This document shows positions 14,408 through 43,945 of a DNA stretch of 64,000 nucleotides, piece by piece (positions within the stretch are counted from its first letter, which is position 1; the number at the start of each line of letters is the position of its first letter). The notes under the pieces are model-generated. The model worked only from the letters and a program-made list of their open reading frames with translations. It was not told the DNA's origin and ran no database searches. Source of the stretch: Phycisphaerae bacterium (GTDB taxonomy: Bacteria; Planctomycetota; Phycisphaerae; UBA1845; UTPLA1); the NCBI GenBank assembly GCA_035275405.1, contig DATEMU010000014.1, positions 62,001-126,000 on the forward strand, written 5' to 3'. The translations under genes were made by a program, and so were the position numbers.

Positions 14408-16969
14408 GTGTCCGACGCACCCGACTCCCTGACCGCCCGCATCGCCGACCTCGCCCGCGCCTCCGTCCTCCTCGTCGCCACCGACTTTGACGGAACCGTC
14501 GCCCCCATCGTCGACGATCCCGCCCGCGCCGAGATGAATCGCGAGACTGCCGTCGCCCTCCGCTACCTCGCCGGTCTCCCCCAAACCCACGTCGCCGTTA
14601 TCTCCGGCCGCGCCCTCGCCGACCTTGCCCAGAAAACCAATGAGGTCGGTGAATTGCACCTTATCGGCTCCCACGGCAGCGAGTTCGATCCCAGCTTCGC
14701 CCTCGGACTCGCCGATGACGCGGCCGCGTTGCTGGACTCCCTGAAGAGTGAGCTTCAATCGCTGGCCGGCGCCCTGCCCGGCGCGATGCTGGAGACTAAA
14801 CCCTCGTCCCTCGCCTTCCATTACCGCAACGCCGACGAAGCACGCGCCGCCGAGACCGTTCGGACGATCCTCGACGGCTCGGCGCACCGGCCCGGCGTGC
14901 ACGTCCGCCACGGGAAAAAAGTCGTCGAACTCAGCGTCGTCGAGACGAATAAAGGCGCCGCTCTGGAGCGCGTCCGCCAGCGCCTCGGCGCCACCGCCGC
15001 CATCTTCATCGGCGACGACGTGACGGATGAGGACGCGTTCGGCGTCCTTCGCGGCTTCGATGTGGGCGTCAAGGTCGGGCCCGGCGAAACCCTGGCCCGC
15101 TTCCGCATCGACGACTCCAACGACGTCGCCCGCACCCTCGCCCAACTGGCCGAAGCCCGCGCCGCCTGGCTCGCCGGCGCCGAGGCCGTCCCCATCGTGC
15201 AGCACTCCATCCTCTCCGACCAGCGCACCGTCGCCGTCGTCGCGCCGGGCGGTCGCATCGTTTGGCTCTGCCTCCCGCGCATCGACTCCCCGGCCCTCTT
15301 CGCCGAACTCCTCGGCGGCCCCCACGCCGGCTACTTCGACATTCGCCCCGCCCCTCAATCCCTTAATCCCTCAATCCCTCAATCCCTCTATCTCGGCGAC
15401 ACCTTCATCCTCCGAACCGAGTGGCCTCACTTCACCGTCACCGACTACATGGACACCTCCGCTGGTCGCGCCTTCCAACGCGCCGGTCGCACCGACCTGC
15501 TGCGTGTGATTGAGCCTCAAGCCTCTGGACCCAAGCCTCAAGTCTTGATCCGCTTCGCCCCCCGCCTCGACTTCGGGCGTATACCCACGCACCTCAGCGT
15601 CGCCGAAGACGGCCTCATCATCGAAGGCGTCGTCGACCCCATCGTCCTCCGCGCCCCGGGCGTCAACTGGAAGATCGAGGACGACGGCGCTCATCACACC
15701 GCCACTGCCATCGTCGAACTCTCCGATCAGCCGCTGGTACTTGAACTCCGTTATGGAACCGGCAGCCTCGCGCCCTCTTCCGTCGCCGAACCCAACCGCC
15801 GCGCCCAGACCGAGCGCTCCTGGAGCGGTTGGGCCGGGAGCCTCACACTGCCTTCCCTGCAGCCCGATCTCGTCCGCCGCAGCGCCCTCGTCCTCAAGGC
15901 CCTGACCTATGGCCCGACCGGCGCGATCGCCGCCGCCGCCACGACCAGCCTTCCCGAACACGCCGGCGGTATCCGCAACTGGGACTATCGCTACTGCTGG
16001 CCGCGCGACGCCGCCATGGCCGCCGCCGCCCTCGTCCAGCTCGGCAACATCGGCCCCGGCACAAAGTTCCTCGACTGGGTCATCGGAATCCTCGAAGGCT
16101 ACGAGCCCGGCGCGCTCTTGCGCCCCGTCTACACCGTCTCCGGCGGTCACCTCGGCTCCGAGGCCGACATCCCTGAACTCGCCGGCTATCGCGGCAGCCG
16201 CCCTGTCCGCGTGGGCAACGCCGCCGCACAACAGGTCCAGCTCGACGTCTGTGGGCCGATTGCCGACCTCATCGCGCAGCTCGCCGAGCACGGCGCGGCC
16301 CTCTCCTCCGAGCACTGGCATCTTGTAAATATCATGGTCTCCGCCGTCGCCGAACGTTGGCGCGAGCCCGACCACGGCATCTGGGAAGTCCGCCTCCCCC
16401 GCCGCCATCATATCCACTCCAAGGTCATGTGCTGGCAGACCGTCGACCGCGGACTCGCCATCGCCCGTTACCTCGGCCGCCGCAAGCCCGAGTGGGAGGC
16501 CCTGCGCAAGGAAATCGCCGACGACGTCCTCACGCAAGGCTGGAACGAAGACACCCGCGCCTTCTGCGGGACCTACGGCAGCGCCGACGCCAACGCTGCC
16601 ACCCTCTCCATCGCCCTCGCCGGTCTCCTCCCCGCGACCGACCCGCGCTTCCTCTCCACCGTCGCGCACATCGAACGCGAACTCCTCGTCGACTCCGCCG
16701 TCTACCGCTACCGCACCGACGACGGTCTGCCCGGCGTCGAAGGCGCCTTCAACCTCTGCACCCTCTGGCTGGCCGACGCGTACATTGCCCTCGGCCGCCG
16801 CGACGAGGCCCACGCCCTCTTCGAAAACTTCTGCCGCCTCGCCGGCCCCACCGGTCTCCTCGCCGAGGAATACGACCCCGAAAACAAAATCGCCCTCGGC
16901 AACTTCCCCCAGGCCTACTCCCACCTCGCCCTCATCCAAACCGCCGTCCGCCTCAGCGGAGCGGGCTGA
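14408..16969 (+). CDS. otsB: Trehalose-6-phosphate phosphatase fused to a GH15 glucosidase
   Basis: 853 residues from GTG. Residues 1-250 are a HAD-type trehalose-phosphatase: DFDGT (Asp26 nucleophile, Asp28), VISGR, and GDDVTDEDAF as the magnesium-binding motif. From about 265 a GH15 domain begins (IVQHSILSDQRTVAVV) with GIRNWDYRYCWPRDA, HGIWEVRLPRRHHIHSKVM (general acid Glu) and GLLAEEYDP (general base Glu). GH15 enzymes of this type are glucoamylases or, in some bacteria, trehalases. The phosphatase would finish OtsA's product; a GH15 trehalase on the same chain could then split it. The domain junction contains PQSLNPSIPQSL, encoded by an 8-bp tandem array, and a second repeat-derived stretch lies near residue 370. 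Assignment of both domains is firm; GH15 substrate is not. Confidence 0.92.
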   Translation: MSDAPDSLTARIADLARASVLLVATDFDGTVAPIVDDPARAEMNRETAVALRYLAGLPQTHVAVISGRALADLAQKTNEVGELHLIGSHGSEFDPSFALGLADDAAALLDSLKSELQSLAGALPGAMLETKPSSLAFHYRNADEARAAETVRTILDGSAHRPGVHVRHGKKVVELSVVETNKGAALERVRQRLGATAAIFIGDDVTDEDAFGVLRGFDVGVKVGPGETLARFRIDDSNDVARTLAQLAEARAAWLAGAEAVPIVQHSILSDQRTVAVVAPGGRIVWLCLPRIDSPALFAELLGGPHAGYFDIRPAPQSLNPSIPQSLYLGDTFILRTEWPHFTVTDYMDTSAGRAFQRAGRTDLLRVIEPQASGPKPQVLIRFAPRLDFGRIPTHLSVAEDGLIIEGVVDPIVLRAPGVNWKIEDDGAHHTATAIVELSDQPLVLELRYGTGSLAPSSVAEPNRRAQTERSWSGWAGSLTLPSLQPDLVRRSALVLKALTYGPTGAIAAAATTSLPEHAGGIRNWDYRYCWPRDAAMAAAALVQLGNIGPGTKFLDWVIGILEGYEPGALLRPVYTVSGGHLGSEADIPELAGYRGSRPVRVGNAAAQQVQLDVCGPIADLIAQLAEHGAALSSEHWHLVNIMVSAVAERWREPDHGIWEVRLPRRHHIHSKVMCWQTVDRGLAIARYLGRRKPEWEALRKEIADDVLTQGWNEDTRAFCGTYGSADANAATLSIALAGLLPATDPRFLSTVAHIERELLVDSAVYRYRTDDGLPGVEGAFNLCTLWLADAYIALGRRDEAHALFENFCRLAGPTGLLAEEYDPENKIALGNFPQAYSHLALIQTAVRLSGAG
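15352..15388. repeat. In-frame 8-bp tandem array (CCCTCAAT/CCCTTAAT)
   Basis: About 4.5 units of CCCTCAAT with one CCCTTAAT variant, translated in the fused phosphatase/GH15 protein as PQSLNPSIPQSL. The same array appears three times in the PQQ gene at 39.4-43.9 kb (opposite strand), always reading in the same frame. Confidence 0.9.
15511..15547. repeat. GCCTCAAG repeat inside the phosphatase/GH15 gene
   Basis: TGAGCCTCAAGCCTCTGGAC followed by a second GCCTCAAGTCTTGA, read as EPQASGPKPQVL. It resembles the CTTGAGGCCTGAGGCTTGAG stretch at the right edge of the window (63972-64000). Confidence 0.55.
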
Positions 16970-21634: not shown

Positions 21635-21718
21635 CCCATCTGTGCGCATCTGCGCCATCTGCGGATTTCTGTTCTTCTTTCGCTATTCGCTATTCGCCAT
21701 TCGCCATTCGCAATTCTC
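21635..21718. repeat. Adjacent copies of two repeat families between convergent genes
   Basis: 21635-21667 is a copy, in reverse orientation, of the GCAGATGGCGCAGATG family; 21676-21718 is TTCGCTATTCGCTATTCGCC and further ATTCGCCATTCG units. The second reaches into the 3' end of the PLP-enzyme gene and supplies its last codons and stop (RMANGE, TAG). Confidence 0.85.
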
Positions 21719-22761: not shown

Positions 22762-22858
22762 CGTGCACCACAGAGCCACAAAGGCCCCGAGAAACGATCG
22801 ATCTCTGATTTCAAATATTCGTCCCCGTCCTCGGTGTTCTCTCTGCCTCTGTGGTGAA
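22762..22858. repeat. MITE-like palindrome with CACCACAGAG ends
   Basis: Left end GTGCACCACAGAGCCACAAA, right end CTGCCTCTGTGGTG in inverted orientation, with partly matching interior (CCCCGAGAA against TCCTCGGTGTTCTC). About 97 bp, lying between the PLP-enzyme start and the GMC oxidoreductase end. Confidence 0.75.
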
Positions 22859-29018: not shown

Positions 29019-29048
29019 TTTTGTCATTCGTCATTCGTAATTCGTCAT
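29019..29048. repeat. ATTCGTCATTCGTAATTCGTC repeat
   Basis: Units of (A)TTCGTCATTCGTAATTCG directly before the methyltransferase-like gene. A reverse copy lies at 33194-33227. The rest of 28817-29064 holds no gene that I can support. Confidence 0.75.
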
Positions 29049-29064
29049 TGGTTACAATGCCCCC

Positions 29065-32819: not shown

Positions 32820-32856
32820 AATCACCACAGAGGCACAGAGAGCAGAGAGCCGAGGG
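32820..32856. repeat. CACCACAGAGGCACAGAG half-element
   Basis: ATCACCACAGAGGCACAGAG then AGCAGAGAGCC. It is a single arm of the palindrome family seen at 14252 and 22762. Confidence 0.75.
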
Positions 32857-33189: not shown

Positions 33190-33193
33190 GGCG

Positions 33194-33227
33194 AATGTCG
33201 AATTACGAATTACGAATGACGAAAGTA
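33194..33227. repeat. CGAATTACGAATTACGAATG repeat
   Basis: Tandem 9-10-bp units of GAATTACGAATGACGAA, the reverse of the copy at 29019-29048, placed just before the aldolase gene. Confidence 0.8.
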
Positions 33228-33886: not shown

Positions 33887-34655
33887 CGGGTTCAATAGCG
33901 AATGGCGAATGGCGAATAGCGAAATCCGATCGCGAGGGGCAAGGTTCGCGCGGAATCGGCTCGTCTGGTGATGAACAATCCGCCAAACGGCAAGCCGAAT
34001 CGGGTGATACTTCGTTGTCGGACCCATCGTTCGCCACGGCCGATTTGCGACTGGCGCTCGGGGCTCGGATCTGTGTGACGGCGGGATCATCGGGGGCGAC
34101 GAGGGTGCCGTCGGGGGCGCGTTTCATTTCCCAGGGCATGTAGGACTTCGGATTAATGGGCTTCAGGCCCCAGATGCCGCGAATGGCCTCGTTGAGGGAC
34201 TGGTCGAACTCCGCTTCGGTGTAGGGCGTGCCATCCTTTTTGCGACCGAAGGGGGCGAGGGGGTCGTCTTCGTCCCTTTGCGGATGGTCGGGGCGATGCT
34301 TCGACTTGGCGGCCTCGGCGCGGAGCTGGGCGATTTCGAGCTGCGTGTCATTGCGGGCGCGGGCGATGTGGTACATGGCGGACACGCGCTGGTGGGAGAC
34401 GAGCACCCGTTCGCGCGAAACGGCCAGCCGCTCACGACCGTCGACCTGCCGATCGCGGGCGATGGCGGTTTTGTCACGGTCGTTGGCGATTTTTTGAAAT
34501 ACGGCGCACTTGTCGGCGAACTTGCAGAGATCGGCGTTGTCGAGATTGCCGGCCTTCAGGCGCTGGCGCATCTCAATCACCAGTTCGCGCTGGAAATCGT
34601 CGAGCAGGGCGCGGTCCTGTTGCTGTTGGTCGTTGGGTTGGGTCGACGGATCCAT
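33819..34655 (-). CDS. Hypothetical coiled protein with a repeat-derived C-terminus
   Basis: 278 residues. Residues 1-130 are a long charged helix (DDFQRELVIEMRQRLKAGNL ... ERLAVSRERVLVSHQRVSA), probably a coiled coil. Residues 130-190 are less regular (FGRKKDGTPYTEAEFDQSLNEAIRGIWG). A strong AAAGGAGG binding site precedes the ATG. From about residue 240 the frame passes through a dispersed repeat (SDFAIRHSPFAIEP) and then antisense through the end of the aldolase gene, so these 35-40 residues look accidental: the original stop was probably lost. I do not recognise the family. Confidence 0.6.
   Translation of the reverse strand: MDPSTQPNDQQQQDRALLDDFQRELVIEMRQRLKAGNLDNADLCKFADKCAVFQKIANDRDKTAIARDRQVDGRERLAVSRERVLVSHQRVSAMYHIARARNDTQLEIAQLRAEAAKSKHRPDHPQRDEDDPLAPFGRKKDGTPYTEAEFDQSLNEAIRGIWGLKPINPKSYMPWEMKRAPDGTLVAPDDPAVTQIRAPSASRKSAVANDGSDNEVSPDSACRLADCSSPDEPIPREPCPSRSDFAIRHSPFAIEPATTGSSSSRSETAPARYPSEDG
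33893..33922. repeat. ATGGCGAATAGCGAA-family repeat in the 3' end of two convergent genes
   Basis: AATAGCGAATGGCGAATGGCG plus GAATAGCGAAA, read on the minus strand as FAIRHSPFAI within the coiled protein. Confidence 0.85.
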
Positions 34656-35029: not shown

Positions 35030-36817
35030 GTGGTGTGGGTAGGATCAGTTCAAATGCGGAATTCGGAATTCGGAATGCGGAATGCGGAACCGGATCGCGT
35101 GGAGACGGGCGCGGGGTGGCGGCGCGGGATGCTTGCGCTATGCATGATCGTCGGGGCGGCGGTGATGGTGCAGGGGGCTGCGCGGCTGCCGTGCATCAGC
35201 CGGGATGGCGTGTTTTTCGTTGAGTATGCGGAGAAGCTGGCGGTTGAGCCGCTGGTGCAGTTGCGGGGGCAGACGAAGCAGCCGGGGTATTCGATTTTGC
35301 TGTTGGGGTTGCATTCGTTGATTGGTCGGTCGATTTCCGAGAACGCGGCAGTTTCGTGGGAGGTTTGCGGGCAGATTATTGCGGTGCTGGGGGGCGTTGC
35401 GGTCGTTGGACTGATTTATTTGCTGACGCGGCGGTTGTTTGATGCGCGGACCGCATTGGTGGCGGCGCTGTTGGCGGCGTTCTGGCCGCAGCTCGTTTCG
35501 GTGTCGAGTGATGTGTTGTCGGATGCGCCGCATTTGGCGTTGTATTTGGGCGGGTTGCTGCTGGGGGTTCGGGCGATGGGCCAAACGAACCGGCGAATCG
35601 AAGAAAATCTGAACCACAGAGGCACAGAGGCACAGAGGACGAGATGGAGGTCGCTGGTTGCTTGCGGGGCGGTTTGTGGCCTGGCGTATTGGATGCGGCA
35701 GGAGGCGCTGGGGGCGGTGGCGGCCGTCGTGGTTTGTTTGCTGTGGCCGGCGGCGCGGGTGGTGCTTTCGCGGCGAGTGGCGCGGGTGGGGGTGGTCGTG
35801 GCGGCGTTTGTGATTGTGGTGGCGCCGTATTCGATTGCCGTGGGGAAGGTGATGCCGAACAAGTCGATCAAGGATTTGTTTTGGGGGACGGAAGAGACGG
35901 AATCCGCAGATGGCGCAGATGGACGCAGATGGTGGGAAAATGCGGAATGCGGAATGCAGAATGCGGAATGGAAGAACCGAGAGGTGCATCAACGAACTCA
36001 GGTTGCAGGGCCGGTGACGTGGTGGGATGCACCGATCAAGATGCTGGGGGGGTGGAGCCGGTCGGGGCGGTATGTGCTGTCGACGCTGGCGCTGGTGGGG
36101 TTTTTCTGGCCGGGGTCGGCGCGGAGCGACCGGGCGGTGCGGCGGTTGGTGGTGATCGCGGCGCTGCTACAAGTCATCGCGGCGCAGGCGCGGGGGATGC
36201 AGTATGGGGTGGTGAGCGAGCGGTATTTGATGATCCCGGCTGCGCTCGCCATTCCGTGGGCGGCGGCGGGGTTGGTGGCGGTGGCGCTATGGATGGCGGA
36301 AAGGATGGCGAATAGCGAAGGGCGAATAGCGAAAGGTGAGGCGCGAGCCATGCGCGAGGCTGAGGCACTGGGTAGACTACGGTCGGCAGGGGCACCGGCC
36401 ACTACGGGGCGCCGGCCGCTACTGGTCGCGGCTCTGATTGCGATTGGGCCGATGGCGTATTATGACTTACGACCGGCGAAGGAAGGTGCGGATTGGCAGC
36501 GGGAGGCAGGGGCGTGGATTGCGGGGCAGGCGGCGAAGGGCGATGTCGTGTTGGCGGCACCGCAGCGGTCGCCAGTGGCGTTTTACGCAGGGTTGGAACG
36601 GCGTTGGCCGGTCAGTGAGGGGATTGCGGTGGCGATGCGACCTGTGAACAGGGCACAGGTATGGGTCGTGGATGATCCAGAAATGAGCCGGGCGACAGAA
36701 ATAGAGAAATCATTGTTGGCGGACTTTCGCAGGCATAAGAGTGCCGACGCGCCGTTGCGGACATGGAGGAAGGAAGAGGAAGGCGAAGTACTGGTGTACA
36801 AGCTGCGGAAGAGTTAG
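35030..36817 (+). CDS. GT-C (PMT/ArnT-like) membrane glycosyltransferase with repeat insertions
   Basis: 595 residues in the open frame, with many transmembrane helices. Near the first helix the loop ISRDGVFFVEYAEKLA has the Arg-Asp-Gly pattern of GT-C enzymes that use polyprenyl-phosphate sugars (family 39/ArnT group), followed by SIL...GL helices and a polar C-terminal part. The frame has at least five repeat-derived stretches: MRNSEFGMRNAE at the start, NHRGTEAQR near residue 195, ESADGADGRRWWENAECGMQNAEW near 292-316, MANSEGRIAKGE near 426, and RSAGAPATTGRRPL near 449. Because the first lies at the N-terminus, the start codon is uncertain; MLALCMIVG at 35129 is the first native-looking methionine. 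It could still be functional since all lie in loops. Confidence 0.75.
   Translation: MVWVGSVQMRNSEFGMRNAEPDRVETGAGWRRGMLALCMIVGAAVMVQGAARLPCISRDGVFFVEYAEKLAVEPLVQLRGQTKQPGYSILLLGLHSLIGRSISENAAVSWEVCGQIIAVLGGVAVVGLIYLLTRRLFDARTALVAALLAAFWPQLVSVSSDVLSDAPHLALYLGGLLLGVRAMGQTNRRIEENLNHRGTEAQRTRWRSLVACGAVCGLAYWMRQEALGAVAAVVVCLLWPAARVVLSRRVARVGVVVAAFVIVVAPYSIAVGKVMPNKSIKDLFWGTEETESADGADGRRWWENAECGMQNAEWKNREVHQRTQVAGPVTWWDAPIKMLGGWSRSGRYVLSTLALVGFFWPGSARSDRAVRRLVVIAALLQVIAAQARGMQYGVVSERYLMIPAALAIPWAAAGLVAVALWMAERMANSEGRIAKGEARAMREAEALGRLRSAGAPATTGRRPLLVAALIAIGPMAYYDLRPAKEGADWQREAGAWIAGQAAKGDVVLAAPQRSPVAFYAGLERRWPVSEGIAVAMRPVNRAQVWVVDDPEMSRATEIEKSLLADFRRHKSADAPLRTWRKEEEGEVLVYKLRKS
35054..35092. repeat. 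GCGGAATTCGGAATGCGGAA repeat at the GT-C gene start
   Basis: ATGCGGAATTCGGAATTCGG followed by AATGCGGAATGCGGAA, providing possible ATG starts (MRNSEFGMRNAE). Confidence 0.85.
35612..35641. repeat. CACAGAGGCACAGAGG repeat inside the GT-C gene
   Basis: AACCACAGAGGCACAGAGGC then ACAGAGG, in frame as NHRGTEAQR. Confidence 0.85.
35902..35976. repeat. Two adjacent repeats inside the GT-C gene
   Basis: ATCCGCAGATGGCGCAGATG GACGCAGATGG (35902-35931) followed by AATGCGGAATGCGGAATGCA and more (35939-35974). Both are read in frame as SADGADGRRW and NAECGMQNAE. Confidence 0.88.
36304..36425. repeat. Two further repeats inside the GT-C gene
   Basis: 36304-36336 has ATGGCGAATAGCGAAGGGCG AATAGCGAAA; 36380-36425 has the palindromic GGCAGGGGCACCGGCC...GGGGCGCCGGCCGCTAC type, also found between genes at 45973-46001. 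Confidence 0.8.
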
Positions 36818-36913: not shown

Positions 36914-37393
36914 ATGGATGAGGCGATGCGGGAACAGGTGGGGCGGGCGCTGGGGCGGATACCGAGCGGGTGCGCGATTGTGACGGCGCGGTCGGGGGAA
37001 AAGTGCACGGGGATGCTGGGGTCGTGGGTGCAGCAGGCGGGGTTTGAGCCGCCGATGATCAGCGTGGCGATTCGGAGGGGGCGACCGATCGAGGGGTTGA
37101 TTGAGGCGTCGGGGGAGTTCGTGATCAACTTGCTGGGGGAGGATCCGACGGCGATGTTCAGGCATTTTGGGAAGGGGTTTGAGCTGGGGCAGGATGCGTT
37201 TGCGGGGTTGGCGGTGAAGGAAGTGGCGTGCGGGATTGAGATTGCCGATCAGGTCGCACGGTTGTCGGTGCGAGTGCGGGGGCGATGCGAGGCGGGGGAT
37301 CATGTGATTTATGTGGGGGAGGTGGTGGAGGCGAGCGCGAAGGAGGCGGGGCGGGCGTACGTTCATACTAGGAAGAGTGGGTGGTCGTACTAA
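36914..37393 (+). CDS. Flavin reductase-like (FMN split-barrel) protein
   Basis: 159 residues from ATG 36914, chosen because GGGAG lies five bases before it. The flavin reductase-like fold is shown by ALGRIPSGCAIVTARSGEKCTGMLGSWVQQAGFEPPMISVAI (an FMN-contact strand pair near residues 13-55), the EFVINLLGE segment and DHVIYVGEVVEA near the end. Similar proteins reduce flavin with NAD(P)H or serve as the electron entry for flavodiiron proteins. The protein is a single domain, with no partner gene adjacent. Confident in family, not in partner. Confidence 0.85.
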   Translation: MDEAMREQVGRALGRIPSGCAIVTARSGEKCTGMLGSWVQQAGFEPPMISVAIRRGRPIEGLIEASGEFVINLLGEDPTAMFRHFGKGFELGQDAFAGLAVKEVACGIEIADQVARLSVRVRGRCEAGDHVIYVGEVVEASAKEAGRAYVHTRKSGWSY

Positions 37394-37424
37394 AATGACG
37401 AATGGCGAATAGCGAATAGCGAAA
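37394..37424. repeat. ATGACGAATGGCGAATAGCG repeat
   Basis: AAATGACGAATGGCGAATAG CGAATAGCGAAAG, filling half of the 63-bp gap between the flavin reductase and the permease. Confidence 0.85.
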
Positions 37425-38712: not shown

Positions 38713-39363
38713 CTATTGCAAGTACGGGTTGTAGCGGCGTTCCTGGCCGATGGTGGTGACGGGGCCGTGGCCGGAGTAGACCTTCGTTTCATCGGGGAGG
38801 GTAAAGAGGTTTTGCTTGATGTTGCGGATGAGGGTGTCGTGGTCGCTGGTGGGGAAATCGGTGCGGCCGATGGAGCCTTCGAAGAGGGCGTCGCCGACGA
38901 TGACGAGCCCGGCCGTCGCGCAGTAAAGGGCGCGGCCGCCGGGGGAGTGACCGGCAACGTCGAGGATGTGCCAGGTGGTGTCATCGAGATCAAGCGTCGT
39001 GCCCGGCGCGAGGTCGCGGGCGCTCTCGACATTGGGGGCGAAGGGCAGGCCCATGTCGGCGGAGAGGTTGAAGCGCGGATCGGTGAGGGCCTGTTTTTCC
39101 TCCGCGGCGATCCAGACGGGGAGCGGGCCGAGGGCCTGAAAGATTTCGGGAATGCCGGCGATGTGATCGGCGTGACCGTGGGTGAGGACGAGGGCGTCGG
39201 GTTGGAGTTTTTTTTCGGCGATGTGGCGGAGTATTCCCTTCGCCGAGGGCGGCAGACCGGGATCGATGATCCAGCAGGGCCCGGCATCGCGGCGCCAGAC
39301 GACGTAGGCGTTTTCGCCGAAGGAAGGTTCGACGAACGCCGCGATTTGCACATCACTCGTCAT
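38713..39363 (-). CDS. MBL-fold hydrolase (glyoxalase II-like)
   Basis: 216 residues from ATG 39363; the longer upstream frame lies within the PQQ gene. The metal-binding HxHxDH motif is LTHGHADHIAG (about residues 53-61), followed by GHSPGGRALY, GDALFEGSIGRTD and YSGHGPVTTIGQE, the remaining ligands of the glyoxalase II/beta-lactamase fold. It probably hydrolyses a thioester such as S-lactoylglutathione-like compounds, or acts on another ester. The ATG overlaps the PQQ gene's stop by 11 bp, so the two genes form one leftward operon and may be translationally coupled. Confidence 0.92.
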   Translation of the reverse strand: MTSDVQIAAFVEPSFGENAYVVWRRDAGPCWIIDPGLPPSAKGILRHIAEKKLQPDALVLTHGHADHIAGIPEIFQALGPLPVWIAAEEKQALTDPRFNLSADMGLPFAPNVESARDLAPGTTLDLDDTTWHILDVAGHSPGGRALYCATAGLVIVGDALFEGSIGRTDFPTSDHDTLIRNIKQNLFTLPDETKVYSGHGPVTTIGQERRYNPYLQ

Positions 39364-42300
39364 TCTTCGCAACGTATCCGATGAGGCGGTTGGCGTCGAG
39401 AAGGAGGAGGGCGTTGTCGCGGAGGAAGAGACCGCCGAAGGAGGCAATGGGCTCGGTCACGATGGGACCGACGGCGTTCGGAGACTCGATGGGGTGCTTG
39501 CCTTCGAGCGGCGCGGGTTTGCCGTTGTCGAGGTGGAAGGCCTGGAGATGGTATTGCGCGGCTTCGCCGTCATCGAGTTCGGGCGCTTTGTCGCGGCGGC
39601 GGTTTTTTGATTTCGGAGGAGCTTCCGGGGTGATGACGATGATCCGATCTTTCAGGAGGCGCGGTGGCTGCACGGCTCGGGCGGCGGGACAAGGCGCGGT
39701 CCAGAGGGTGTGACCGTCGTCGGCGTCCAACGCGAGGAGGGCGACGTCGGAGGCGACGTAGAGCACGCCTGCGGCCTGGCGACACCAGAGGGAGCCCGCT
39801 TCCCCGGCAAAGGGCGACGAGCGCCAGCGGACGGCGGCGTCGGCGAGGTCGAAACAGGTCAGGCGGCGGCCGTCGGCGCTGACGATGAGGCTATCGGCAT
39901 TGAGTTGCAACGTCGCGGCGACGAAATGTTCGGGGACGGCGATCCTCCAGACGGGCTTCGCGGAGGCGAGATCGTATCGCTCGATTGTCGAGGAGCGGAC
40001 GACGAGCAGACCGCGCGGGCCGAGGTCGGTGGTCCAGTGCAGGGACTGGGCGGGGCCTTTTTCATCGCTCGTGAGTTGGCGAATGAGGCGGCCGGTCGCG
40101 GCGTCGAGAACGTTGATGGAATGATTGCCTCCCTGCCAGACGCCATAGCAGCAAGAATCGTCGTCGGCGAGGAGCTGGCCGGAGGGAGAACCGGCGGATT
40201 TGTTTTCCCAGACGAGATTGCCCGTTTTTACGTCTGTGCAGTTGAGCGCGCCGCGGTCCGTGGCGGCGAAGAGTCGGCGCGGAGTCAAGAAGTATTGAGC
40301 ATAAGCGGGCAGCGACTCGGGGTCGGCGTGGACGTCGTCGGGCGGCTCCTCACCGACTTGCCATGCGAGTTGACCGCTGGTGCGCGTCAGCGCGAAGAGT
40401 CGGTACGGCGTGGCGAAGACATAGCGGTCCGCGTCCATGCCGACCAGGACGGGTTGGGCGGAACTGGGAAACGGCTTGGACCAGAGGCTTCGACCGGTCG
40501 CGGGGTGGCGAGCTTCGACCTGACGGCCGGCGTAGGTCAGCAGCGCGTCCCAGCGCGTGTCGGGGAGGTCGGGGAAGAGGGGTTCGAGGACGGAGACGCG
40601 GTCGGGGAAGAGGCGGTGGTAAGTGTCGGTGATCGGCGGCAGTTCAATGTTGTTGGCGGGATCGGTGAAGTCGCGATCGCCGAGTCGGAGGCGGCCGTAG
40701 ACGGAGAAGGAGACGAGGGATTGAGGGATTGAGGGATTAAGGGATTGAGGGGAAGAGGAGGCGAAGCGGTGATTTGGATAATCTCGGGCGCCGCGGTGGA
40801 GCCAGGCGGCGGCGTCGGCGGGGCGGTCGGCGGCGATTAATACGTCGGCGTAGCGGCGGATCAGGTCGGGATAGGTCATTTCAGAATGCGCCGAAGGGTC
40901 GTCGTCTTCGGAAACTCTTTTGGATTCCGCGCTCGTCAGGGCGCGGCGGTAGGAACGGGCGGCGGCGGGCCAGTCGAGGCGCTTCGTCATATAGTCGGCA
41001 TGGGTCACAAGGGCTTCGAGCGCGGCGGGGCTGTTGGGGAAGGCATCGGCGACTTCGAGCAGGTTCGAGGCATCGGTCTTCGCGCCGCCGCGCTGGATTT
41101 GCGATTGGGCGATTTCGAGCCGGTCGGCGGCCTGGCGCGCGACGGCGGCGTAGGCTTCGGGGCCGTGGAGCTTGATGATCCTCGCGATCCAACTGGTGAC
41201 GGCGGGCGCGAGGTCCACGGTGGGGCCATCGGCGTCGTCTGATTGTCGCTCCGCGTCGTCGTCGCGCGCGCGCCAGGGCGGCCGCAAGACGGGACGGAGT
41301 TCGAGCTTGAGCCGTCGGAGGCCGCGATCGGCGAGGATTCTTTGATAGGCCTGCACAGCGCCGGGCTGGTCATTGGATTCGAGCAGGGCGCGGGCGAGCA
41401 GAAGGCACTGCGTGGCGCGGTCGGCGGGGCCGGGCGGGCATTGGCCGGCGAGTTTCAGGAGGGTGACGGCGGTTTGAAGGCGAGGGATTGAGGGATTAAG
41501 AGATTGAGGGATTGAGGGGGCTGCGTCAGAGTCGCGTTCATCCGGCGCGTCTTCAAGAAGAGCCGTAGCGAATTGGGTGAGGGTTTTGAAGAAACGGCGG
41601 CGGAGGGGTTCGTCGGTGAGGCGGGCGAAGCCGCCGACGCGGTCGACGGCGGAGTGGACGGCGTCGAGACCGCGCTGGTACTCGCCGGTGTTGAAGGCGA
41701 GTTCGGCGAGGGAGAAGGCGATGAGGGGATCATCGGGTCGCTCCTGCATTCGTCGATCGAGTCGGGCGAAGGCGTCCTGTCGGGCGACGAGTCCGAAGAC
41801 CGAGTTCGGGGCGGCGACAACGATCTGGTCGGGAAGGACGAGAAGATTTCCGGCGTCTTCGATCGACCAGCGGTAGTGGCGGGCGGGGCCGCCGTCGAGG
41901 GGGTAGTGGAGCAGACTGCGGTCAGTCGGCAGAAAGAGACCGGTGGTGGTGAGCGCGCCGCGGCCGAAGAGCTGGCCGAGTTCGAGGGGGCGCTGCCAGG
42001 CGATTTTCCGGGCGGCGAGGTCGTAGCAGACGACCTGCGTTCCGGCGGTATAGAGCCAGTTTCCGGCGAGTCCGACGAGCGTTTGCGGGCGATGTATGGA
42101 GTCGGCGGGGATCTTGAAGAGTTCGCGGCCGTCATCCTGCGCGAGGACGAGTATCGCGTCATTATCGAGTGGCATACAGACGACGGCGTCTTTCCAGAGC
42201 ATCGCGCTGTTGTAATGCCAGGCGCGCAAGGGTCGGGTCGTGGTATCGGGCCAGACGGCGCCTTCGTTCGCGCCGAATCGCGAATCGTATTGATGGGCCC

Positions 42301-43945
42301 AGGCCACGCGACCGGTGGAAGTGGAGACGGCGGCGACTCCACCGAGGTTGGTGGGGACAAAGACAAGATCACCCTGCGCGGCGGGGAAGGTGAGGGTGGC
42401 GCGGGAGTAGCCGTAGCTGCCGGTCGCGGCTTCGCCGAGATGGACGGACCAGACGAGTCGGCCATCGGCGGGGTCGAGGCGGATCAGGTAGCAGGCTTCG
42501 AAGCCGAAGGGTTTTCGGCGGCGGGCGACAGCGTATAGCGCGGCACGGTGAAGGATGGGCGCGCCGTCGAGGCGGGCCTCCTCAAAGGGAGAGACGAAAC
42601 CGTCGAGGTCGTTTCGCCAGATCAGTGAGCCATTGGCGGCGTCGAGGCAGACGAGCGTGGAGGCGGCGGTGATGTGGTCGCTGCCGGTGTCGGTGATTTC
42701 GCGCTCAAAATGGACATAGAGACGGCCGTTGGCATAGAGGCTGGTGTAGAGCGGGGGAGCGGATTCCTCGGCATTCCACGGCGCGGGGGCGGGGAGGACC
42801 TGGGAAAGATCGAATTGCCAGACGGGCCGGTCGGGGTTTTGCGGGTCGATGGCCCAGGCGCTGCGTGCGTCGTGCAGGAAAATAAGAGGGATTGAGGGAT
42901 TAAGGGATTGAGGGATTAAGGGTTCGGTGGCCGCGACGGGTTGGGAGGCGAGGAGGCGGCCGCTGGTGAGGGCGCGGTGGTAGGCTTCGAGTCGGGCGAT
43001 TCGCGATTCGTAGCCTTCGGCGATTTCGCCGGTGAGAAGGCGGCCAAAGGCGTTGAAGCGCCACCAGCGGGCTTCGGCGGAGGCGGTGGTGGGGAATTGG
43101 CCGCGTCGATGGGGTGCGCCGCCGAGGAGTTCGGGGCGAGCGGAGACCGGGTCGGGAGTGCCGTCGCGGCGGCACTGGTCGAGTGTTAAACGGAGGAAGT
43201 CGCTGAGTGGTTGGGACTTGCCGGCCCAGTCGACGGATTTATCCACAGATGGCGCCGATGCACGCAGATTGTCGGAAGGCGGCAAGGACGCGATCAGTTT
43301 TTCGAGTGGGGCGAGGTCGCCCTGATGCGCGAGGCAAAGGGCGAGCTTGGCTTTCCAGTGCGATTCAAATTGTTCGCGGTCAGGATGGTCGGCGAGGAGA
43401 CGCTCGTACCAGCGGCGAGCGGCTTCGAAGTCGGCGTTTTCCATGGCCAGTTCGGCGGCCTGGTCGAGCGACTGCGCGCCGGCGTTCGTCGCGTAGAAGC
43501 GTTCGGCGAGTCGGACGCGGGCGTCGATGTCCGCGGGGTTCTGCAGTTCGGCGAGCGCGGCCGCGGCGGAGGATTCGAATGCGGCGCGGTAGGCGGCGAG
43601 GCCCTCCGCCGGCCAGTCGGCGATCTTGCGGTTGACGAACTCGCGGACACTGATGTAGAGGCGCGACGGCGCGCCCGGCTCGGCGATCAGGCTGGCGCCG
43701 AATTTCTCACCGATTTCGTGGAAGGCGCGGGCGGCGTCGGCCCAGTCGGCATCGGGGGCGCCCGCCACGGCGGGCAGGTTCTGCTCGGCGCGGTCGAGGG
43801 CCTCCTGGGCCTGGAAGCTGATGTTGAAATAGGTGGCATCCGCCGCGTCGGGTTTTCGATCGGCAGGGCGTTCAGGGGGAGGATCGGCAAATACCGGTAG
43901 CAGTCCGAACAGGATTGGGAGGATACCAGCCATTGCGAATGCCAT
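39353..43945 (-). CDS. Giant exported PQQ-propeller/TPR protein with repeat-encoded inserts
   Basis: 1530 residues with an N-terminal signal peptide (MAFAMAGILPILFGLLPVFA). A first quinoprotein-like beta-propeller lies at about residues 365-720 (WAIDPQNPDRPVWQFDL; VCLDAANGSLIWRND; LDPADGRLVWSVHLGE), then TPR-like helices (about 720-1090: DDPLIAFSLAELAFNTGEYQ), then a second propeller to the end (ATGRSLWSKPFP; TGNLVWENKSAG; LALDADDGHTLWTAPCP). Such PQQ/TPR proteins are common exported planctomycete proteins of unknown role. Three linkers are PQSLNPSIPQSL-type inserts encoded by an 8-bp tandem array (40716, 41482, 42886), and a fourth near residue 230 (SAPSVDKSVD) comes from the GCAGATG family. 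It is followed by the MBL hydrolase. Confidence 0.88.
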   Translation of the reverse strand: MAFAMAGILPILFGLLPVFADPPPERPADRKPDAADATYFNISFQAQEALDRAEQNLPAVAGAPDADWADAARAFHEIGEKFGASLIAEPGAPSRLYISVREFVNRKIADWPAEGLAAYRAAFESSAAAALAELQNPADIDARVRLAERFYATNAGAQSLDQAAELAMENADFEAARRWYERLLADHPDREQFESHWKAKLALCLAHQGDLAPLEKLIASLPPSDNLRASAPSVDKSVDWAGKSQPLSDFLRLTLDQCRRDGTPDPVSARPELLGGAPHRRGQFPTTASAEARWWRFNAFGRLLTGEIAEGYESRIARLEAYHRALTSGRLLASQPVAATEPLIPQSLNPSIPLIFLHDARSAWAIDPQNPDRPVWQFDLSQVLPAPAPWNAEESAPPLYTSLYANGRLYVHFEREITDTGSDHITAASTLVCLDAANGSLIWRNDLDGFVSPFEEARLDGAPILHRAALYAVARRRKPFGFEACYLIRLDPADGRLVWSVHLGEAATGSYGYSRATLTFPAAQGDLVFVPTNLGGVAAVSTSTGRVAWAHQYDSRFGANEGAVWPDTTTRPLRAWHYNSAMLWKDAVVCMPLDNDAILVLAQDDGRELFKIPADSIHRPQTLVGLAGNWLYTAGTQVVCYDLAARKIAWQRPLELGQLFGRGALTTTGLFLPTDRSLLHYPLDGGPARHYRWSIEDAGNLLVLPDQIVVAAPNSVFGLVARQDAFARLDRRMQERPDDPLIAFSLAELAFNTGEYQRGLDAVHSAVDRVGGFARLTDEPLRRRFFKTLTQFATALLEDAPDERDSDAAPSIPQSLNPSIPRLQTAVTLLKLAGQCPPGPADRATQCLLLARALLESNDQPGAVQAYQRILADRGLRRLKLELRPVLRPPWRARDDDAERQSDDADGPTVDLAPAVTSWIARIIKLHGPEAYAAVARQAADRLEIAQSQIQRGGAKTDASNLLEVADAFPNSPAALEALVTHADYMTKRLDWPAAARSYRRALTSAESKRVSEDDDPSAHSEMTYPDLIRRYADVLIAADRPADAAAWLHRGARDYPNHRFASSSPQSLNPSIPQSLVSFSVYGRLRLGDRDFTDPANNIELPPITDTYHRLFPDRVSVLEPLFPDLPDTRWDALLTYAGRQVEARHPATGRSLWSKPFPSSAQPVLVGMDADRYVFATPYRLFALTRTSGQLAWQVGEEPPDDVHADPESLPAYAQYFLTPRRLFAATDRGALNCTDVKTGNLVWENKSAGSPSGQLLADDDSCCYGVWQGGNHSINVLDAATGRLIRQLTSDEKGPAQSLHWTTDLGPRGLLVVRSSTIERYDLASAKPVWRIAVPEHFVAATLQLNADSLIVSADGRRLTCFDLADAAVRWRSSPFAGEAGSLWCRQAAGVLYVASDVALLALDADDGHTLWTAPCPAARAVQPPRLLKDRIIVITPEAPPKSKNRRRDKAPELDDGEAAQYHLQAFHLDNGKPAPLEGKHPIESPNAVGPIVTEPIASFGGLFLRDNALLLLDANRLIGYVAKNDE
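40716..40751. repeat. 8-bp tandem array in the PQQ gene, copy 1
   Basis: GAGGGATTGAGGGATTGAGG GATTAAGGGATTGAGG, encoding SPQSLNPSIPQSL on the minus strand. Confidence 0.92.
41482..41518. repeat. 8-bp tandem array in the PQQ gene, copy 2
   Basis: GAGGGATTGAGGGATTAAGA GATTGAGGGATTGAGGG, encoding PSIPQSLNPSIP. Confidence 0.92.
42886..42922. repeat. 8-bp tandem array in the PQQ gene, copy 3
   Basis: GAGGGATTGAGGGATTAAGG GATTGAGGGATTAAGGG, encoding PLIPQSLNPSIPLI. Confidence 0.92.
43240..43270. repeat. GCAGATGGCGC-family repeat in the PQQ gene
   Basis: TTATCCACAGATGGCGCCGA TGCACGCAGATT, a diverged copy of the family flanking the GxxExxY gene. Confidence 0.65.

Follow-up and report, generated by a model that had tools for sequence, protein, structure and literature searches.

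Here we report that the short octamer arrays found in two genes of the 64,000-nucleotide stretch analysed here (the window; bases 62001-126000 of contig 14 of genome G000, 5.29 Mb) are probably, at roughly 60%, copies of a small non-coding dispersed repeat, family A of a genome-wide set of short tandem-repeat elements. Most elements of the set consist of five invariant cores of 3-4 nucleotides (nt) and four variable spacers, usually of 4 nt, giving 31 or 36 base pairs (bp). In the explanation that we favour, new copies would be seeded by arrays already present, either copied whole or through template switching at shared cores, rather than grown unit by unit from a single CCCTNAAT seed, and their spacers would be drawn from, and mixed within, a genome-specific pool. 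A copy that lands in a gene would be translated without harm, and it may survive there only if the gene is read from the stop-free C-rich strand and the site is a loop, a linker or a terminus.

A sequence-only reading of the window had described identical arrays at four sites in two genes, all read in one frame and giving one peptide. The four octamer arrays are real (Table 1). They lie on the coding strand of open genes, and each is translated as a PQSLNPSI-type peptide, as had been proposed. Written in the CCCT orientation, the A arrays have five CCCT cores separated by four N4 spacers, chiefly CAAT or TAAT, and their repeat unit is the octamer ATTGAGGG; the array at 15352, 36 bp long, carries the spacers CAAT, TAAT, CAAT and CAAT, in this order. 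The arrays are not identical, as CCCTTAAT units differ in order and number and the array at 41482 has an altered core.

Table 1 Repeat arrays and host genes in the window
Feature	Position	Strand	Context
Trehalose-phosphatase (PF02358), TREH_N (PF19291) and GH15 (PF00723) gene	14408..16969	+	853 aa; A and C-type arrays
A-type five-core array	15352..15387 (octamer array 15352-15392)	+	trehalose-phosphatase/GH15 gene, phase 2
Degenerate C-type array (CCT-CARG)	15515..15546	+	GH15 gene
B-type five-core array (TTC-GNNA)	21679..21709	+	
Three-core array (CTCTGTG or ATCTGCG relative)	22830-22854	+	
B-type five-core array	29020..29050	+	
Three-core array (CTCTGTG or ATCTGCG relative)	32825-32849	-	
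B-type array	33193..33224	-	
B-type five-core array	33893..33924	-	
H-type array (ATT-CCGC), about 5.3 units	35053..35089	-	
D-type three-core array (CTCTGTG)	35615..35638	-	
H-type array (ATT-CCGC), about 4.6 units	35939..35970	-	
B-type array	36303..36334	-	opposite strand to called gene
B-type five-core array	37393..37424	-	
PQQ_2/BamB-like beta-propeller repeat protein gene	39353..43945	-	1530 aa; three A arrays
A-type five-core array	40716..40751 (octamer array 40715-40751)	-	PQQ-repeat gene, phase 2
A-type five-core array, one altered core (CTCT)	41483..41518 (octamer array 41482-41518)	-	PQQ-repeat gene, phase 0
A-type five-core array	42887..42922 (octamer array 42886-42922)	-	PQQ-repeat gene, phase 0

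Repeated CCCTCAAT stretches are dispersed over the whole genome. The exact three-core pattern CCCTYAATCCCTYAATCCC has nine matches in the window as against none in 100 dinucleotide shuffles, and 39 in the genome as against none for the reversed pattern, so that family A amounts to a single short word, tandemly repeated at numerous unrelated sites. A two-unit pattern allowing up to three mismatches found 91 matches in the genome and 5 in the control. We took 30 stretches of the genome around matches, the window itself covering its own four arrays, and a symmetric scan of them, in which core and spacer changes were penalised equally, delimited 32 A-type segments, many more than the four sites first described. 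These stretches were selected for holding A arrays; a 400-kb sample and the pattern searches of the genome are free of this selection. One A array occurs twice, 270 bp apart, with similar right flanks (C15:152140-152175 and 152410-152445); this pair is a local duplication. At C3:401441 and C3:580583, A arrays stand at the same codon of two similar genes.

The relatives lack the window arrays. The PQQ gene has ten full-length orthologues in the family (38-47% identity), and its three arrays are absent from all ten; the array sites are loops of variable length, in which the orthologues mostly lack about 8-12 residues. The A array of the GH15 gene is likewise absent from the five usable orthologues among six, the L206 row having been read in a wrong frame and left out. 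Here a 36-bp array has lengthened the loop by a net 3 residues only, which does not agree with simple insertion; the translated array seems to have taken the place of a loop of about ten residues. The degenerate C-type array of the same gene corresponds to a gain of five residues over the five orthologues. Because orthologous genes of relatives lack them, the four window arrays are insertions or replacements. The relatives found included no genome of the same genus. A four-core A array occurred in none of the 14 other family members searched and in 5 of 61 genomes of the order sample, G000 included (the reversed control is uninformative for this search, its pattern being nearly identical when read backwards). 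The strict three-core pattern was present in 1 of 294 genomes of the phylum sample, G000 itself. Many other phyla nevertheless have exact A arrays, with at least 117 stretches carrying them.

The number of cores is the most regular property of these arrays. When CCCT cores were linked at a spacing of 7-9 bp, the 28 resulting A chains had 3, 4, 5 and 6 cores in 3, 2, 21 and 2 cases; this tally includes two locally duplicated or paralogous copies, lacks the array at 41482 with its altered core, and omits three chains without NAAT-type spacers. The five-core chains contain four spacers of 3-4 nt each and usually total 36 bp. Other words follow the same plan. Besides CCCT-YAAT (A), we saw TTC-GNNA (B), CCT-CARG (C), ATT-CCGC (H), CAC-TGGC and GCT-TAYG, and the families other than A mostly share five cores at period 7 (31 bp). 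For family C, a selection-free genome-wide pattern gave 11, 23 and 2 chains with 3, 4 and 5 CTCA cores, tallied from the listing, four CTCA being equal to five CCT. In a scan for period alone, period-7 arrays of 4.5 units made up 18 of 32 in the unbiased sample and the leader loci combined and 19 of 47 in the remaining stretches, and shuffled DNA yielded 2-4 arrays; the peak, at 4.4-4.5 units, extends over several families. At period 7, 31 bp hold five 3-nt cores and four 4-nt spacers; at period 8, 36 bp hold five 4-nt cores and four 4-nt spacers. Between the two periods the length changes but the core number does not. Period-8 arrays outside family A had no clear mode in unit number, and families D (CTCTGTG) and E (ATCTGCG), with three cores each, are exceptions to the rule.

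This regularity bears on whether the arrays are ordinary simple-sequence repeats, in which local slippage between 3-4-nt microhomologies would have built 7-8-bp arrays independently at each site from a slippage-prone octamer. Such a process predicts a decay with length, whereas we observe a sharp five-core mode (against a flat null, p 9e-7 for A, although only 0.03 for C), and identical words turn up at unrelated sites across the genome. Half-integer unit counts, with a core at both ends, come naturally to microhomology seeding and prevail among the period-7 arrays of other phyla, where unit numbers also vary widely. Published accounts of heptamer repeats favour slippage too (Mrazek 2007, as summarised in passages of PMC4679880).

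The variation within arrays speaks to the same question. Cores deviate from the consensus at 4 of 513 bases and spacers at 55 of 425 (Fisher p about 1e-15), which makes cores about 17-fold more conserved; within genes alone (14 arrays, one paralogue omitted) the figures are 3 of 271 and 28 of 235 (p 2e-7). Most spacer changes turn C into T at the first place or A into T at the third. Old arrays that mutated at random would show changes in their cores too, so either the spacers diversify during the making of an array or the cores are kept for a reason. In family A, moreover, the type of spacer is tied to its place within the array (permutation test over 24 arrays, p 0.0004). For B, this dependence is weak in G072 and G019 (p 0.03 each); G029 gives p 0.0002, but its copies share flanks; for B and C in G000 it is unclear (p 0.11 and 0.10). 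The conservation of the cores and the position dependence of the spacers are hard to reconcile with slippage, whereas the lack of a shared spacer order between loci would be expected of it. Together with the genome-wide dispersal, the near-constant five cores and the orthologues without arrays, the position-dependent spacers agree with the earlier judgement that independent expansion at four sites is a poor explanation, and we regard slippage as a possible but doubtful origin.

We also considered the exact copying of whole arrays, judged by identical spacer order, and it was unsupported: identical order between loci was in no excess over within-array shuffling in families A, B, C and H (p 0.49-0.80). 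This test left out nine elements with like flanks (4 A, 2 C, 2 B and 1 H), some of which are perhaps alike by chance only, their flanks being C-rich.

The invariance of the cores could instead reflect structure on the G-rich strand. The complement of CCCT-N4 arrays has five AGGG tracts with loops mostly of 5 nt, which fits a motif of four or more three-G tracts joined by loops of 1-7 nt, and arrays of the form (AGGGATTG)n may be kept as putative G-quadruplexes with a spare tract. The G-tracts are the invariant part of the array, and the GGGNATC repeats of Xanthomonas and Nostoc prefer four units, oligonucleotides derived from which fold into G-quadruplexes in vitro, according to passages of PMC4692102. 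However, the G-tract-free families TTC-GNNA, ATT-CCGC and CCT-CARG have the same core number, B in other genera also, so quadruplex folding cannot be the general reason; we consider it an unlikely cause of the arrays.

The shared peptide follows from the length of the unit. Since 8 mod 3 is 2, an array runs through all frames, as any array of three or more units does, and yields the same peptide from every phase: on the C-rich strand all three phases give the cyclic peptide PQSLNPSI without a stop. On the opposite strand, each phase meets TGA at least once. The CCCTTAAT unit produces TAA in one of three phases, and arrays in open genes avoid this phase by necessity. With genes called by a home-made codon score rather than by a standard gene finder, 18 of the 32 A segments lie wholly within called genes, of which 15 run with the coding strand and 3 against it, and the other 14 are intergenic or partly so. 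Among 150 arrays at A-bearing loci of other phyla, a long frame was open on the C-rich strand in 32, on the other strand in 3 and on neither in 115.

The first CCCT of the 15 same-strand arrays falls in phases 0, 1 and 2 in 6, 3 and 6 cases. The claim of a single frame therefore fails, both in the window, where the phases are 2, 2, 0 and 0, and in this genome-wide count, in which arrays occupy every phase; the count goes most of the way towards the refuting condition that the earlier reading had set for itself. The related suggestion of selection for a non-disruptive reading holds for the stop-free strand (15:3 here, 32:3 in other phyla) but not for one frame: strand is selected through stop codons, frame is not. 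As the peptide is shared automatically, no selection for one frame is needed.

Pfam searches of 14 of the 16 host genes, two of them without a match, place the in-gene A arrays mostly between or outside domains, at termini or in interdomain linkers. Using protein names that are our reading of Pfam families, arrays follow the SRP54 domain of FlhF and the FHIPEP domain of FlhA, precede the C-terminal domain of FliN, stand just before the hinge of SMC, and separate the two domain blocks of an RsmB-like protein, HisKA from HATPase in a histidine kinase, and a hydrolase from an AMP-binding domain. In two other proteins they precede TPRs and an M56 domain, respectively. The array of the GH15 gene lies within TREH_N. 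One PQQ array stands just before the best PQQ_2 stretch, the only stretch listed, which leaves the other two unplaced. One opposite-strand copy is in a DNA polymerase III alpha-like gene.

These hosts bear on the proposal that the arrays are phase-variation switches, in which adding or losing one octamer would shift the frame. As 8 is not a multiple of 3, a change by one unit would indeed do so. Yet core number hardly varies, every host frame is open, and the spacers include variants, which should lower slippage. SMC, FlhA, FlhF, FliN, RsmB, GH15, the histidine kinase and the PQQ-repeat protein are not contingency or surface genes, and the first five are not genes in which a switch is expected. 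Such housekeeping hosts make a frameshift switch implausible, and we regard this proposal as highly improbable.

The arrays might also serve as multi-copy binding sites of a regulator, as has been proposed for TAACTGA repeats upstream of start codons. Constant cores, regular spacing and a fixed number would suit such a role, as would the intergenic or partly intergenic A segments. The intergenic arrays, however, have by eye no obvious common position or orientation to genes, more than half of the segments are wholly inside genes, and several unrelated words share one architecture, which together make binding sites quite improbable.

The regularity extends to other genomes. A strict B pattern was matched in 36 of the 101 order genomes searched, up to 90 times in one, and the reversed control had no match in nearly all of them. 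In 40 stretches from three other genera we found 53 B arrays, with 3, 4 and 5 ATTCGNN units in 3, 43 and 7 cases; 38 of the 43 four-unit arrays end in an exact terminal ATT. Spacer alphabets are genome-specific, with TT, CT and AC in G029 and CT, CC, CA and AA in G072. Most B arrays of G029 share flanks and are therefore part of a larger dispersed repeat, not independent copies; this larger repeat (L293-L312), in which the B arrays are embedded, has a conserved flank around CGCGTGGCCACGGAGGGCCGACGCTACGG. In other phyla, A arrays have 3-15 CCCT cores and their cores vary more than here, and the five-core rule is not universal. At loci L035-L151, which come from A-bearing genomes in other phyla, the unit counts of period-7 arrays tend to be half-integers and peak at 4.5.

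Most arrays are single. One A inverted pair was seen, together with 11 B inverted pairs in the stretches, all in the order minus then plus, with array starts facing loops of 20-87 nt. By eye, about 11 of 36 spacers are equal between the arms of nine inverted pairs, which is not clearly above the expectation from the commonest spacer.

A more far-reaching interpretation, which we put forward only tentatively and hold to be improbable, is that five-core arrays form a class of their own among mobile or templated DNA elements, present across the order and probably beyond it. Its machinery would fix the number of cores rather than length or sequence, and CCCT, TTC, CCT and ATT would be parallel subfamilies of one process, often in inverted pairs.

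Short repeats of 7-8 bp are usually explained by polymerase slippage, or else quadruplex folding is invoked for their copy number. A constant core number across unrelated words, G-tract-free ones included, and across genera follows from neither, and it would make the origin of such repeats testable. When unrelated proteins share a peptide, its source can be a DNA repeat that is translated, and this matters for annotation and for the analysis of linkers and loops.

The nearest described cases are the TAACTGA and GGGNATC repeats. TAACTGA heptamer direct repeats are known from marine Beggiatoaceae, Cyanobacteria and Bacteroidetes (MacGregor 2015, PMC4679880); passages of that report describe sets of few copies, 2-6 in the main genome and longer in others, with no known copying mechanism. 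They resemble the A arrays in being a short tandem word, of 7 bp, dispersed genome-wide and in unrelated phyla. They are mostly intergenic just upstream of start codons, whereas the A arrays have no such preference, more than half being in genes (18 of 32 wholly) and the others at varied distances. In these passages the number of TAACTGA sets falls from two copies upward, in contrast to the mode of five cores here, and here spacers vary while cores do not and several words share one plan. The quadruplex-forming GGGNATC and GGGGA(T/C)T repeats of Xanthomonas and Nostoc (Rehm 2015, PMC4692102), in the passages that describe them, are likewise dispersed G-tract repeats with a 3-4-nt G core, a variable loop and a preferred copy number, four, which is explained there by quadruplexes; in related species, the prominently long repeats are found at different genes. 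They are heptamers, unlike the octamer with five cores described here, with its high in-gene share and a number rule that extends to G-tract-free families. The short tandemly repeated repetitive (STRR) heptamers of cyanobacteria and long simple sequence repeats (Mrazek 2007) are also dispersed, with 7-bp units dominant, and the citing summaries in PMC4679880 and PMC4692102 describe these repeats as slippage-type and varying in number. A survey of prokaryote satellites (Subirana and Messeguer 2019, PMC6749651) reports, in part, heptamer-derived families and scattered species-specific short satellites, for example in Chloroflexus aurantiacus; it targeted repeats of 10 nt and more, and the passages concerned mention no fixed core number. 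The exact words CTCTGTGCCTCTGTG, CACAGAGGCACAGAG, CGCAGATGAACGCAG, ACAGGATTAACAGGATT, CCCTCAATCCCTCAAT and ATTGAGGGATTGAGGG had no match in the literature searched, which mostly excluded subscription papers, and a wider eight-letter search gave only apparent chance matches.

REPIN/RAYT systems comprise short dispersed non-autonomous elements, often as inverted pairs around a short loop. Some B arrays form pairs of this kind, although most arrays are single, and the arms of the pairs are tandem arrays and not REP hairpins. RAYT was considered as the mobiliser of the A arrays and rejected: of five Y1_Tnp genes, the four loci examined carry their own hairpin-like repeats and no A arrays. At these loci (L261, L262, L263 and L265), RAYT-like transposase genes are flanked by hairpin-like repeats such as CAGCCCTTCGGGCTGAAG.

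Rfam, run on eight stretches, returned one tRNA and nothing else. A leader-like dispersed element, AGGGAGCGCTGAGCAAGG, a variable part and CGGAGATTCCGCGCCATG, occurs in G000 at 26 exact and 10 one-mismatch sites (for example L155:4074 (+), L156 (-) and L176:4450 (+)). It has no Rfam match in the scanned stretches, and its exact start motif is present in 2 of 61 order genomes. A pyrimidine-rich short-repeat array often precedes it, in all nine copies of the first stretches and, by eye, in roughly 10 of 27 others. The three-core arrays have the form CTCTGTG-NN-CTCTGTG-N-CTCTGTGG, with ATCTGCG relatives. Beyond the window they occur at L262:80-200 and L262:2640-2740 and as inverted pairs round intergenic loops, and words similar to them are present in loci from other phyla.
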